DNA from: Deltaproteobacteria bacterium
GTDB lineage: Bacteria > Desulfobacterota > Desulfobulbia > Desulfobulbales > SURF-16
Assembly (NCBI GenBank): GCA_016219175.1
Contig: JACRCD010000028.1
Location: forward strand, 1-64,000
Direction: 5' to 3'
DNA: 64,000 nt
The first letter of the stretch is position 1. Each line of letters starts with the position of its first letter. The notes beneath the pieces were generated by a model, which was not told the origin of the DNA, searched no databases, and saw only the letters and a list, made by a program, of their open reading frames with translations. A program made the translations under genes and the position numbers. Positions 32,914-42,806 of the stretch are shown here, one piece after another.

Positions 32914-33328
32914 GGGTCCCCTTCCCTCCCCTGGAGGGTTCGAGGGAACCGGTTCAGTCCCGCAATATTGCAAAATAAATGCCGGAAAACAATTGCGACT
33001 GACCGGCCTGAGATTAATGGGAACAATATTTGCAATTTATCTGCGTCCAGAGCATGGCCGGGCCGCCGGCGGAATCGCTCTGCCGGCATGGTCCGCTCTC
33101 TTGATCATGAGGGTTCTCGGGCGCTGGAGGCATGATCATTCCTCTGCCGCGGTGCTTACTTTGCGGAAGGGAAGGGATGATAACTATTTCCCGCCCGCAC
33201 CGGAAGGCTTGCTGTTTATGAATCATTTTTTATTTTTGCCACGGAGGAAACCGGATGAAAGGAAATCAGATAAAAAGAATCGATATAAGCATTGTGGGGA
33301 TGGCGCCTGATTTGCCACAGCCCGGAAG

Positions 33329-33529
33329 ATGACCGGGGTTCTGGCTGCCGCGGGCAATCCCGATGCAGCCCTGGTTACCTGGTTTGATAAGGAGAAAAAT
33401 CAGCATTGGCCGGAAGATGTCGGGCCGGATACCGAGGAGTTTAAAAGGTGGCGGTTCTATGGCATACATCATGGCGGCCGTCTGGAGATCCATGTCAATG
33501 ACGGTCAATATATAATGATGTATAGCTGA
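33329..33529 (+). CDS. Possible small protein, 66 residues
   Basis: The frame reads well (TWFDKEKNQHWPEDVGP, then KRWRFYGIHHGGRLEIHVND). It is coupled by an ATGA overlap to a 25-codon upstream ORF (33254-33331) that has a strong GGAGGA ribosome site. Alternatively the two are one frameshifted gene. No family recognised. Confidence 0.4.
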   Translation: MTGVLAAAGNPDAALVTWFDKEKNQHWPEDVGPDTEEFKRWRFYGIHHGGRLEIHVNDGQYIMMYS

Positions 33530-36562: not shown

Positions 36563-38293
36563 ATGGATTATACAATACTGATTGGGGGAGAGGCCGGACA
36601 GGGCTTGCAGACAGTCGGCGCCGCCTTGGCCAGGGTGCTGAGCCGGCAGGGTTATCATGTTTTTACCCACCAGGATTACATGTCCCGCATCCGGGGGGGC
36701 CACAATTTTTATCAGATCAGGGTCTCGGAAAAGCCGCTTTGCGCCTCAACGGACCAGATTCATATCCTTGTCGCCCTGGACAGGGATACCATCATCATCC
36801 ATCAGGATGCCCTGCTTGAGCACGGCATTATCCTCCATGACCCGCAAGCCGCGGCTGAAGAGTTCAGCGGGGACCGTTTCATGGCCACCCCCTTTGTCCG
36901 GCTGGCCGAAGAAAGCGGCGGCGGCAAGATCATGGCCAACAGCGTGGCCATCGGCGCCGTGCTCGGCCTGTTCGGCCTGAGCCCTGAAATCATGCGGGAG
37001 GTGCTGGCCGATTTTCTCAGCAAAAAAAATGAGGAAATCCTTAACCAGAATCTGCTCGCCGTCAAGGCCGGCCATGACCATAGCCGCCGCCACTGCACCC
37101 GCCTGCAACACTTTGCGGTGCGCCAATCCGCCGGGAAGAAATTGATGCTGATCAACGGCACCCAGGCTGTGGCCGCCGGGGCGCTGATGAGCGGCTGCAA
37201 GTTCTATGCGGCCTATCCCATGACCCCGTCAACCGGCATCATGGTCTATCTAGCCGGCAAAAGTGCTGAATTCAACATCGTCGTGGAGCAGGCCGAGGAT
37301 GAGATCAGCGCCATCAACATGGCGCTGGGCGCCTCCTATGCCGGGGTGCGGGCCATGACCGGCACCTCGGGCGGCGGCTTTGCCCTGATGACGGAAGGAC
37401 TGTCACGGGCCGGCATGACAGAAACACCCCTGGTGATCATGGAGGGGCAGCGGCCCGGGCCGGCCACCGGTCTGCCCACCCGCACGGAACAGGGTGATCT
37501 CTCTTTTGTCATCCATGGCGGCCATGGCGAATTTCCACGGGTCGTCCTCACCCCGGGCAGCCCGGAGCAGGCCTTTTTTGCGGCCAACAAGGCCTTTGAT
37601 CTGGCGGAAAAATACCAGATCCCGGTCTTTATCCTGACTGATCAGTATCTGGCTGATACGGAGTGGACCTATGAGGGCCTTGACCCAGAGAAGCTGATAT
37701 ATGAGGATTATCGTTTACGTGGCGGCTCCCTGCGGGGGCTTGCCGAATACAAACGCTACGCCTTCACCGACAGCGGCATATCGCCCCTGGCCGTTCCCGG
37801 TGATTCGACCCATCTGGTGGTGGTTGACAGCGATGAACATGACGAAGAGGGGCATATCATCGAGGACGCCGCCACCCGGGTCAAGATGGTGCACAAAAGG
37901 CTGTTTGCCAAAAGGGCCGGACTGCGGGCGGAAATCGCCCTGCCGGTTTGGCATGGGGACCAGGAGGCCCGGATGGTGCTGCTGGGCTTCGGCTCCACCT
38001 TGGGGGTGATGCGGGAGGTGGTCGATGAACTCGCCGGCAGCTCCCCCATCGCCATGCTCCATTTCAGCGAGGTCTACCCCTTTCCCGCCCTTGAAGAGCA
38101 TGGCTTGCTGGACAGGCTGCGGAAGGCGGAACAGACCATCTGCATCGAAAACAACGCCACCGGGCAGTTTGAGCGGCTGCTGCGGGCGGAAACCGGATTT
38201 TGCTGCACAGGGCGCATCAACCGCTACGACGGCCGGCCCTTTACCCTGGAATCGCTGGTGCAGCAGGTGCGGGCACAGATGGCAAGGATGTGA
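36563..38293 (+). CDS. korA: 2-oxoacid:acceptor oxidoreductase, fused gamma-alpha subunit
   Basis: 576 residues. The gamma domain comes first (ILIGGEAGQGLQTVGAALA, RIRGGHNFYQI), then the alpha/PP domain (INGTQAVAAGALMSGCKFYA, YPMTPSTGIMVYLAG, EQAEDEISAINMALGASYA). Together with the beta subunit downstream it forms a CoA-dependent ferredoxin oxidoreductase for 2-oxoglutarate or a similar acid. Substrate is not certain; the fused gamma-alpha form with separate beta is KorAB-like. GGAGG precedes the ATG. The partner gene is 180 bp away, separated by a palindromic repeat. Confidence 0.92.
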   Translation: MDYTILIGGEAGQGLQTVGAALARVLSRQGYHVFTHQDYMSRIRGGHNFYQIRVSEKPLCASTDQIHILVALDRDTIIIHQDALLEHGIILHDPQAAAEEFSGDRFMATPFVRLAEESGGGKIMANSVAIGAVLGLFGLSPEIMREVLADFLSKKNEEILNQNLLAVKAGHDHSRRHCTRLQHFAVRQSAGKKLMLINGTQAVAAGALMSGCKFYAAYPMTPSTGIMVYLAGKSAEFNIVVEQAEDEISAINMALGASYAGVRAMTGTSGGGFALMTEGLSRAGMTETPLVIMEGQRPGPATGLPTRTEQGDLSFVIHGGHGEFPRVVLTPGSPEQAFFAANKAFDLAEKYQIPVFILTDQYLADTEWTYEGLDPEKLIYEDYRLRGGSLRGLAEYKRYAFTDSGISPLAVPGDSTHLVVVDSDEHDEEGHIIEDAATRVKMVHKRLFAKRAGLRAEIALPVWHGDQEARMVLLGFGSTLGVMREVVDELAGSSPIAMLHFSEVYPFPALEEHGLLDRLRKAEQTICIENNATGQFERLLRAETGFCCTGRINRYDGRPFTLESLVQQVRAQMARM

Positions 38294-38316
38294 AAATACG
38301 ATTTCATCAAACAAAT

Positions 38317-38447
38317 GAGCCTGTTGCAAAAGCCGGGGACAGCCGTCATTCCGGCGGGCTTTTCACCGGAGTTCAAATTCTAACTGTCTGAAAAAAATGG
38401 ATCCCCGATAAAAGCATGCGGGGATGACATACGTTTTGCAGAGGCTC
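38317..38447. repeat. Palindromic intergenic repeat (REP/MITE-like) between korA and korB
   Basis: Outer inverted ends GAGCCTGTTGCAAAA (38317-38331) and TTTTGCAGAGGCTC (38434-38447). Inside, GTCATTCCGG...CCGG and GGATCCCCG...CGGGGATGAC form two further hairpins. The GTCATTCC...GGATGAC layout recalls palindromic repeats found many times in related genomes. It interrupts an otherwise normal two-gene operon. Confidence 0.7.
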
Positions 38448-38473
38448 AAATAACCGCTTTCTTGAGGCTGACA

Positions 38474-39325
38474 ATGGTTGAACTGGAAGATTATAAAGGA
38501 CAAAAACCCGCATGGTGTCCGGGCTGCGGTAATTACAGCCTTATCGACACGCTGAAAAGAACCCTGGTGGAACTTGAGATCCCGCCCCACCGTCTCGTCG
38601 TGGTTTCCGGCATCGGCCAGGCGGCCAAGCTCCCCCATTATCTACGCTGCAACACCTTTAACGGGCTGCACGGCAGGGCCCTGCCCGTGTCCACCGGGGT
38701 ATCCATGGTGAATCCGGAGATGCTGGTGCTGGTTACCACCGGTGACGGCGATTGCTATGGCGAGGGGGGCAACCATCTGCTGCATGCCATCCGCCGCAAT
38801 ATCAACGTCAAGCTTTTTGTCCATGACAATCAGGTTTACGGGCTCACCAAGGGCCAGGCCTCGCCAACGACCATGGAAGGGGTGAAGACCAAGACCCAGC
38901 CCTTCGGGGTCTTTTCATCGCAGCTCAATCCCCTGACCCTGGCCATCGCCCTGGATTGCGCTTTCGTGGCCCGGGGTTTCACCGGAGACAGACCTCTGCT
39001 GCAGGCGCTGATGGCGGCCGCCATCAGACATAAGGGCTTTGCCCTCATTGATATCCTCCAGCCCTGCATCACCTTTAACAAGGTCAACACCTATAAGTGG
39101 TATAAGGAGCGGGTCTATCCCCTGGAGGCGGATTATGATGCGACCGACCGGATGACCGCCTTCCAACGCTCACTGGAATGGGGAGAGAGGATCCCCACCG
39201 GGATTTTTTACCAGCATGAAAAGCCGGTTTTGACCGATATGCTGCCGCCGTTGCAGCCCGGTCCCCTGCCGACCCAGCCCTTTGACCGCCAGGCGGCCAA
39301 AGGGGTGCTGCGGGAGTTCTATTGA
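38474..39325 (+). CDS. korB: 2-oxoacid:acceptor oxidoreductase, beta subunit
   Basis: 283 residues starting at ATG 38474 (GAGG 8 bp upstream) in place of TTG 38462. A 4Fe-4S/TPP domain protein: PAWCPGCGNYSLIDTL at the start, the TPP-binding GDGDCYGEGGNHLLHAI, then HDNQVYGLTKGQASPT. Cys in PAWCPGCG and FALIDILQPCITFN bind the cluster. It is the catalytic partner of the fused gamma-alpha protein upstream. Confidence 0.92.
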   Translation: MVELEDYKGQKPAWCPGCGNYSLIDTLKRTLVELEIPPHRLVVVSGIGQAAKLPHYLRCNTFNGLHGRALPVSTGVSMVNPEMLVLVTTGDGDCYGEGGNHLLHAIRRNINVKLFVHDNQVYGLTKGQASPTTMEGVKTKTQPFGVFSSQLNPLTLAIALDCAFVARGFTGDRPLLQALMAAAIRHKGFALIDILQPCITFNKVNTYKWYKERVYPLEADYDATDRMTAFQRSLEWGERIPTGIFYQHEKPVLTDMLPPLQPGPLPTQPFDRQAAKGVLREFY

Positions 39326-41123: not shown

Positions 41124-42092
41124 ATGGAAAGAAAAAAAATAGTGGTCATAGGAGCGGGACCTGCCGGAATCGCAGCGGCGGTCGAGGTCAAGGAGGCAGG
41201 TTTGGCCCCGGCTGTGGTAGTGGAAAAGGCGGGGCATGCCTGCGACACCATTGTCCGCTTCTACCGGGATGGGAAACGGGTCGATGCTGACTACCAGAAG
41301 GTGAAGGTTGCCCAGCAGGGGTTACTTTCATTTGCCACGGAAAGCAAAGAAGAGTTCCTGGCCGAAATGGACAGCGTGATCAACAGACATGTGCTGGATA
41401 TCCGCTATAACCAGGAATGCCACAAAATCGAGGTTAAAAACGACACCTTTCACATCCATACCGCCGGAGGTTTGAGTCTTGAGGCAAACATCGTGGTCGC
41501 CGCCATCGGCATCTTTGGCAAACCCGTCCGGCCCGCCTACCCCATTCCCAAGGAATTACGCGACAAAATCCTGTTTTCCCTGCCCAAGGAGCCGTTGGAC
41601 GGCAAAGATGTGCTGGTGGTCGGCGGAGGTGATTCAGCCGCCGAGGCTGCCTGTTTTCTTTGCCAGAAAAACAGGGTGACCCTCTCCTACCGCCGGCCCA
41701 ACTTTTTTCGGATTAATGAAATAAACATGTGCACCTTGAACGGTTGTTGCTGCGAGGGCAAGGTAAAAACCAAGATGCCCTCCGATATTGAGGGGCTGGA
41801 GCCGGAAGGAAAGCGCATCAAGGTCCTGTTCAACAACGACACTCCGCTGAGTTTCGATGTGCTGTTCTATTTTCTGGGCGGTTCCACTCCCCAGGTCTTT
41901 CTGGAAAATGCCGGGGTAAGGTTCAGCGGCAGAAAACCCCAGGCGGATGAATGCGGAGAAACAAATATTCCCAGACTCTTTCTGGCCGGCGACCTGGTGC
42001 TGGACAGGGGCTCGATCATGGGAGCCTTCAATTCGGCCTACCTGGTCAAAAACGGGATTCTCAGCCGTTACCGGGAGTTGGTCACGGTATAG
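41124..42092 (+). CDS. FAD-dependent thioredoxin-reductase-like flavoprotein
   Basis: 322 residues. FAD motif IVVIGAGPAGIAAAVEV at the N-terminus, NAD(P)-motif DVLVVGGGDSAAEAACFLC in the middle, FLAGDLVLDRGSIMGAF at the end. It resembles the YpdA/TrxR-like two-dinucleotide group but lacks the CxxC redox pair of true thioredoxin reductases at the usual position. A Cys-rich loop (MCTLNGCCCEG) is present instead. A UGA-containing thioredoxin-fold gene starts 145 bp downstream, which makes an enzyme-substrate pair plausible. Confidence 0.82.
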   Translation: MERKKIVVIGAGPAGIAAAVEVKEAGLAPAVVVEKAGHACDTIVRFYRDGKRVDADYQKVKVAQQGLLSFATESKEEFLAEMDSVINRHVLDIRYNQECHKIEVKNDTFHIHTAGGLSLEANIVVAAIGIFGKPVRPAYPIPKELRDKILFSLPKEPLDGKDVLVVGGGDSAAEAACFLCQKNRVTLSYRRPNFFRINEINMCTLNGCCCEGKVKTKMPSDIEGLEPEGKRIKVLFNNDTPLSFDVLFYFLGGSTPQVFLENAGVRFSGRKPQADECGETNIPRLFLAGDLVLDRGSIMGAFNSAYLVKNGILSRYRELVTV

Positions 42093-42236
42093 GAGCGTTT
42101 AAAAACGAAGAATCTTCCTTGCCGGCCGTGGCGAGGGGGTTGCGAAGACATGGGCGATACCACGGGGATCCGCTTCTAGCGGGTTCACGCCGGATTACCC
42201 GAACTTGAAAGTCAAACACGAAAAGGAGACAATGAC

Positions 42237-42806
42237 ATGGAAACAAAAATTCAATGGCAAAACGACCTGGAGAAAGCCCTGAAGTGGGCCAAGTCCGAAA
42301 ACAAGCCCGTGTTTCTGGATTTCTTCAACCCCCAGTGAATCGGCTGTCAACAAATGGATGCAGTTACGTATCCACATGCAAAAGTTGCCGAGTTCATTAC
42401 TAAAAATATGATTGCCGTTCGGGTGCCCTCGGATGCAAAGCCACTATCGGTGGATTTCAATGTTAACTGGACCCCCACCCTGATCACGCTGGGCTCCGAC
42501 GGCAGAGAGCATCATCGGACCCTTGGCTTTCTGGCCCCGGAGGAACTGATTCCCTCCCTGCTGCTGGGCATGGCCAAGGTGCATTTTGACGCCGGACAAT
42601 TCGATGAGGCCCTTGCCGGTTTGGCGGCATTACTGACAGAATATCCGAAAAGCGATGCCGCTCCCGAAGCCATCTACCTGCGGGGGGTCAACCGGTATAA
42701 AAGCACCCATGAGGCCAAACCCCTCAAAGAGGCCTATGAACAGCTGCTGGCTGAACATGCTTCCAGTGAATGGACCAAAAGGGCCTATCCCTACCGGTTG
42801 CTGTAA
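42237..42806 (+). CDS. Thioredoxin-fold selenoprotein (UGA-encoded Sec, UxxC), with TPR-like C-terminus
   Basis: ATG at 42237 has AAGGAGA 7 bp upstream. The frame reads FLDFFNPQ, then UGA (42336-42338), then IGCQQMDAVTYP and continues to 42806. The UGA thus falls on the first Cys of a thioredoxin CxxC site, giving UIGC. The N-terminal part without the stop is clearly protein-like, so a simple start at 42354 would cut the domain in two. A SECIS-like hairpin follows (see that entry). Residues ~125-189 look TPR-like (DAGQFDEALAGLAALLTEYP). A real nonsense mutation is the alternative. Total 189 residues including Sec. Confidence 0.8.
42355..42374 (+). promoter_or_regulatory. Bacterial SECIS-like element
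   Basis: TGGATGC (42355-42361) pairs with GTATCCA (42368-42374), 7 bp with one G-U wobble, closing a 6-nt loop AGTTAC with G at its second position. The loop begins 23 nt after the UGA, inside the 16-37 nt window described for bacterial SECIS elements. It directs SelB-dependent Sec insertion if functional. Confidence 0.65.

Follow-up and report, generated by a model that had tools for sequence, protein, structure and literature searches.

More than 110 prokaryotic selenoprotein families have been listed, many of which are thioredoxin-fold proteins carrying a UxxC motif (PMC13188914, PMC9312934). One of these, a thiol:disulfide interchange protein with a PF13098 domain and a UxxC motif, has been reported in Syntrophus and Geobacter (PMC1794560), and thiol:disulfide interchange protein selenoproteins have also been reported in ocean samples (PMC2398784). 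This listed family is described by UxxC and PF13098, appears as 'Trx-like 2' and cd02953, and has WP_011366075.1 as its representative (PMC13188914, PMC1794560, PMC2398784). A second point of reference is the chaperedoxin CnoX (YbbN), which in E. coli possesses an SxxC motif and a TPR domain, longer than the helical tail described below, that is made up of two five-helix subdomains (PMC8129009). Chaperedoxins of this kind are also marked by holdase activity and by handing clients over to GroEL/ES.

The locus described here lies in a window of 64,000 nucleotides (the whole stretch of DNA that was analyzed) and almost certainly encodes a selenoprotein, judging from sequence comparisons. This assignment is based on the conserved UGA, the Cys replacements at the same column, the RNA-level constraint on a hairpin, and the presence of the full Sec machinery. 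The explanation as a whole, in which SECIS-directed insertion of Sec34 would yield a thioredoxin-fold UxxC protein with a TPR-like helical domain, is very likely correct. The features of the locus are as follows.

41124-42092, + strand: upstream flavoprotein, YpdA/TrxR-like, a possible reductase (Pfam, NCBIfam)
42223-42228, + strand: ribosome-binding site AAGGAG, 8 nt ahead of the start codon (sequence)
42237-42806, + strand: predicted selenoprotein gene, thioredoxin fold plus TPR-like helices, 189 residues (Pfam across the UGA; AlphaFold2)
42336-42338, + strand: UGA codon for the predicted Sec34 (68 of the 70 long homologues from the order have one in-frame TGA, the other 2 have Cys)
42345-42347, + strand: Cys37, second redox residue of UxxC (unchanged in all 34 aligned sequences)
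42355-42374, + strand: putative SECIS hairpin, stem 42355-42361 with 42368-42374, loop AGUUAC 42362-42367, conserved G 42363
42468-42476, + strand: Trp78-Thr79-Pro80, probable cis-Pro loop position of the thioredoxin fold (W-T-P invariant in the 34-sequence alignment; cis-Pro role from the fold)
42537-42803, + strand: C-terminal TPR-like helical domain, residues 101-189 (model helices; weak TPR matches; BamD-like and YbgF-like helical matches)

The reading frame extends from the ATG at 42237 to the TAA at 42804-42806, and the UGA is its sole interruption. Translation with UGA read as Sec gives METKIQWQNDLEKALKWAKSENKPVFLDFFNPQ-U-IGC-QQM...RLL, in which the redox site is UIGC. The initial annotation had placed the UGA at the first Cys position of a CxxC motif, within a frame that is open and protein-like on both sides. 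Both points are borne out, as the closest homologues that lack the UGA have Cys at this column and the matches to the Pfam families Thioredoxin_2, Thioredoxin_7, and Thioredox_DsbH, all above gathering scores, span the UGA (the PF13098 domain reaches 42.3 bits, with the cut-off at 27). The strong ribosome site that had been claimed for the upstream start is the AAGGAG listed above, and purine-rich GGAG-type sites precede the equivalent start in nearly all homologues. The warning that annotation from 42354 would drop the active site is also fair, since the mechanical ORF begins at this ATG (Met40) and the active site is lost. The gene illustrates how standard gene calling can remove active sites in selenium-using anaerobes.

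Conservation of the UGA was followed in an order-level sample of 258 genomes. Among the long matches (E at most 1e-37, n = 70), 68 contain exactly one in-frame stop, which is TGA, and two contain none and read CIGC; the TGA column is identical across the loci examined. The UGA form recurs in many families of the phylum (395 genomes), where two further homologues without UGA, from G534 and G271, contain CxxC. In the more distant relatives, which reach at most 32% identity, the site is mostly CxxS or occupied by other residues, and UGA persists in some. The family, in which dozens of UGA homologues stand beside a handful of Cys ones, is a clean system in which to study the exchange of Sec and Cys. 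One idea considered and rejected was that the Cys form is tied to loss of selA. The Cys genomes G129 and G534 have no selA match, but selA is present in the Cys genomes G141 and G271, and G129 (L055, contig C1) keeps selB and tRNA-Sec; consequently, no such tie can be claimed. In a separate case, the homologue in G189:C12 (L062) is found in two pieces in different frames, with the break after an intact UGA region.

The bSECIS model specifies a loop of 3-9 nt, a stem of 4-16 bp, a G in the first two loop positions, a spacing of 16-37 nt, and an MFE of at most -7.5 (PMC13188914). The hairpin downstream of the UGA, UGGAUGC-AGUUAC-GUAUCCA, fits every one of these constraints, with a loop of 6 nt that has G at position 2 followed by U, a stem of 7 bp, a loop start 23 nt after the UGA, and an MFE of -8.6 kcal/mol. 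The fold of the single sequence exceeds shuffled versions only slightly in stability (z about -1 to -2), so that the hairpin by itself is unremarkable and the case for it rests on comparison across homologues. The loop G is kept in 83 of 83 homologues. The outermost stem pair (U-A) forms in only 36 of the 83, indicating that the conserved stem is 6 bp. Consequently, the earlier description of a 7-bp hairpin with G at loop position 2 at the right distance from the UGA stands for the loop and the spacing, and the conserved stem is one pair shorter than described. A search of Rfam, whose models may not cover bacterial SECIS elements, returned no SECIS match in the gene.

Codon usage in the loop argues for a constraint at the level of the RNA. 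The Thr44 codon is ACG in 98% of homologues versus 27% family-wide, and the Val43 codon is GTT in 91% versus 34%; in contrast, the fully conserved Thr79 and Pro80 each use four codons. The hairpin-loop codons thus appear frozen beyond what the protein needs, pointing to RNA-level constraint on the hairpin. Across 64 distinct sequences, 90.4% of cells are paired, compared to 17-57% with the partner slid. Double-sided changes, exchanging A-U with G-C and U-A with A-U, occur in 7 cells versus 0.7 in shuffles; these counts rest on two pairs in related sequences and are not probabilities, as the shuffles leave the relatedness of the sequences in. A covariance model built from these homologues gives the window copy 65.7 bits, by construction, and gives 12.9 and 7.9 bits to the Cys homologues L056 and L123. 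The Cys homologue L055 keeps 39.9 bits, and its Cys change looks recent. Asp41 is found with Tyr45 and Glu41 with Phe45 (42357-42359, 42369-42371; L098, L100), as the stem pair U-A/A-U would require. The Cys homologue L123 also has Glu41 and Phe45, and a protein-level cause of the 41/45 coupling is possible. The locus likewise lends itself to work on how a SECIS within a coding region constrains the encoded protein: codons 43-45 are nearly frozen, and codons 41 and 45 are tied together through pairs of the stem.

The genome (4.2 Mb, 98% complete) contains the machinery for Sec insertion. A look-up of selA, selB, selC (tRNA-Sec), and selD had been proposed, and all four were found above cut-offs: tRNA-Sec scores 68.9 bits (cut-off 47; next tRNA 41.6), and selA, selB, and selD score 619, 365, and 376 bits, all above curated cut-offs. 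The selD of this genome has an in-frame UGA of its own (STVKAAG-UGA-AAKLSPGD; L018 from 1481, G000:C88:161448-162374) and is a Sec-containing form. Of the genomes in the order that carry the UGA form (n = 67), seven, all drafts, lack a selA match; each of these seven has selB or tRNA-Sec above the cut-off.

The structure of the product was modeled with AlphaFold2 using 34 window and locus proteins as input, with Cys replacing Sec (pLDDT 97.1, pTM 0.91). Structure comparison of the model indicates that residues 1-100 adopt a thioredoxin fold for which DsbD-gamma is the nearest match (Z 13-14), while residues 101-189 form TPR-like helices with Z of about 12-13 to BamD, a range that may arise by chance for helical repeats. 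Inspection of the sequence by eye reveals neither a signal peptide nor a membrane segment, suggesting that the product is probably cytosolic. In the proposed mechanism, SelB and Sec-tRNA-Sec would decode the UGA as selenocysteine, directed by the hairpin, so that Sec34 and Cys37 would constitute the UxxC redox pair. Based on thioredoxin chemistry, Sec34 would attack a disulfide or oxidized thiol of a client, and Cys37 would resolve the selenenylsulfide. The Sec34/Cys37 pair would be regenerated by some flavoprotein or ferredoxin-linked reductase, while the helical domain may bind a client or partner. It is reasonably likely that the product functions as a disulfide reductase with a client-binding domain.

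The gene neighborhood varies between families (20 other loci). The initial annotation had noted a TrxR-like flavoprotein just upstream; a flavoprotein is present there, but its best NCBIfam score is YpdA-like (92 bits, cut-off 340) and not clearly TrxR (thioredoxin reductase, 56 bits, cut-off 343), with both scores below cut-off. This gene adjoins the selenoprotein gene in only 1 of the 20 other loci, that of a congener, and as the pairing holds only within the genus, the flavoprotein is no more than a possible dedicated reductase. Genes for a two-subunit 2-oxoacid:ferredoxin oxidoreductase recur within about 6 kb of the selenoprotein gene, on either side; they are present in the window (36563-39325) and near the gene in 7 of the 20 other loci, four of them from one genus (L105, L108, L109, L112, L117, L118, L119). 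Downstream of the gene, the window also contains ferritin-like and rubrerythrin genes, and ferritin-like genes are found close to it in 3 of the 20 other loci. In two genomes of one genus (G214:C59, G215:C202), the selenoprotein gene is ~1.6 and ~1.0 kb from selA. The oxidoreductase, ferritin-like, and selA neighbors are a hint of electron-transfer and selenium contexts.

Ordinary termination, an internal start, sequencing error, and genome-wide recoding are all unlikely given the conserved UGA and its Cys exceptions, the recurrence of the UGA form, and the over-conserved hairpin. If the UGA were a true stop, a shorter protein would be made from the ATG at 42354. All 34 aligned sequences have Met40, and the ORF downstream of it is open, as this reading expects; however, Met40 has no ribosome site, whereas the upstream ATG is preceded by AAGGAG, and Met40 is retained in Cys homologues, in which no stop precedes it. 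Moreover, the stretch ahead of the UGA contains conserved residues (Trp7, Lys23, Asn31, Pro32) and appears to be under coding constraint (e.g., dN/dS of 0.10 versus G240, a noisy value as only 32 codons were compared), making termination at this codon very improbable. The codon could also reflect an error in sequencing or a stop acquired by chance in a pseudogene, and the window itself provides a precedent. When the other UGA-joined frames of the window were screened, one, a DUF5619 gene (33254-33529, + strand) joined across a TGA at 33308, had a Pfam match. Its N-terminus (MKGNQIKRIDISIVGMAPD) is encoded in one frame and the remainder in another, and the homologues viewed have no TGA at that place, their usual N-terminus being found here in another frame. 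On these grounds the DUF5619 gene, although it mimics a selenoprotein, was rejected as one and is attributed to a frameshift near that TGA. For the thioredoxin-like gene, in contrast, dozens of genomes, independent of one another and spread over many families, have a TGA at one and the same column, and an error or chance stop there is hardly credible. A genome-wide code change, with UGA read as Trp or Cys, would also leave the read-through frame open, but it is equally hard to credit, as TGA is the stop codon of 27 among the window's 59 ORFs that reach 100 aa, many homologues of the selenoprotein gene themselves end in TGA, and a SECIS and Sec machinery are present.

The remaining alternative accepts the selenocysteine and concerns its use, in that the selenoprotein would be a thiol peroxidase or a selenium-delivery protein instead of a disulfide reductase. 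The ferritin-like and rubrerythrin genes downstream in the window, the ferritin-like genes at three other loci, and the two instances of nearby selA would suit such a role. However, the domain matches thiol-disulfide reductases, Pfam and NCBIfam searches gave no peroxiredoxin or GPX family match, and the neighbors in question differ between families, so that this alternative is possible but rather unlikely.

Returning to the reading as a thioredoxin-fold selenoprotein, the closest listed family is that of the UxxC thiol:disulfide interchange selenoproteins, under which the predicted protein falls when placed by domain and motif alone. Both have PF13098, Sec at the first position of UxxC, and Deltaproteobacterial hosts, whereas the TPR-like tail of the product goes unmentioned in the parts of those listings that were consulted. 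As its domain and motif fit this family, the description of the gene as another selenoprotein of a known kind is well supported. In the literature searched, the exact protein does not appear under any name, the nearest entries being the thiol:disulfide interchange proteins with UxxC and the generic class of thioredoxin-like selenoproteins. Similarly, no NCBIfam model (June 2026) reaches its cut-off on the protein and none names it; the NCBIfam selenoproteins TsoB, Trx7/PDZ, and VPGUxxT show weak similarity within the thioredoxin domain, with scores far below their cut-offs (43 versus 805, 27 versus 300, and 25 versus 275, respectively). DsbD gamma (the C-terminal domain of DsbD) and DsbH share the thioredoxin fold, with Z of 13-14 and about 25% identity. 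Unlike these proteins, the window protein has no membrane domain or evident signal peptide, would use Sec in place of the first Cys, and has an extra helical tail.

The arrangement of a thioredoxin domain followed by TPR helices resembles that of the CnoX/YbbN chaperedoxins, which give the top Foldseek whole-chain match, although the overall superposition is poor (TM 0.44, rmsd 11). The 50 matches listed in a second structural comparison do not include YbbN, which may rank below them. In contrast to E. coli CnoX, the window protein has a UxxC motif and a shorter tail, with TPR matches below or near the cut-off. A broader proposal, with somewhat less than an even chance of being right, is that the gene belongs to a widespread, unnamed selenoprotein family of the phylum, made up of Sec thioredoxins that carry a TPR-like domain of their own for binding clients, as a small Sec version of CnoX would. 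In such a family a mechanical caller would cut the protein at Met40, and the SECIS would hold codons fixed and might link residues 41 and 45. Should the TPR-like tail bind clients, the protein would be a Sec relative of the chaperedoxins.
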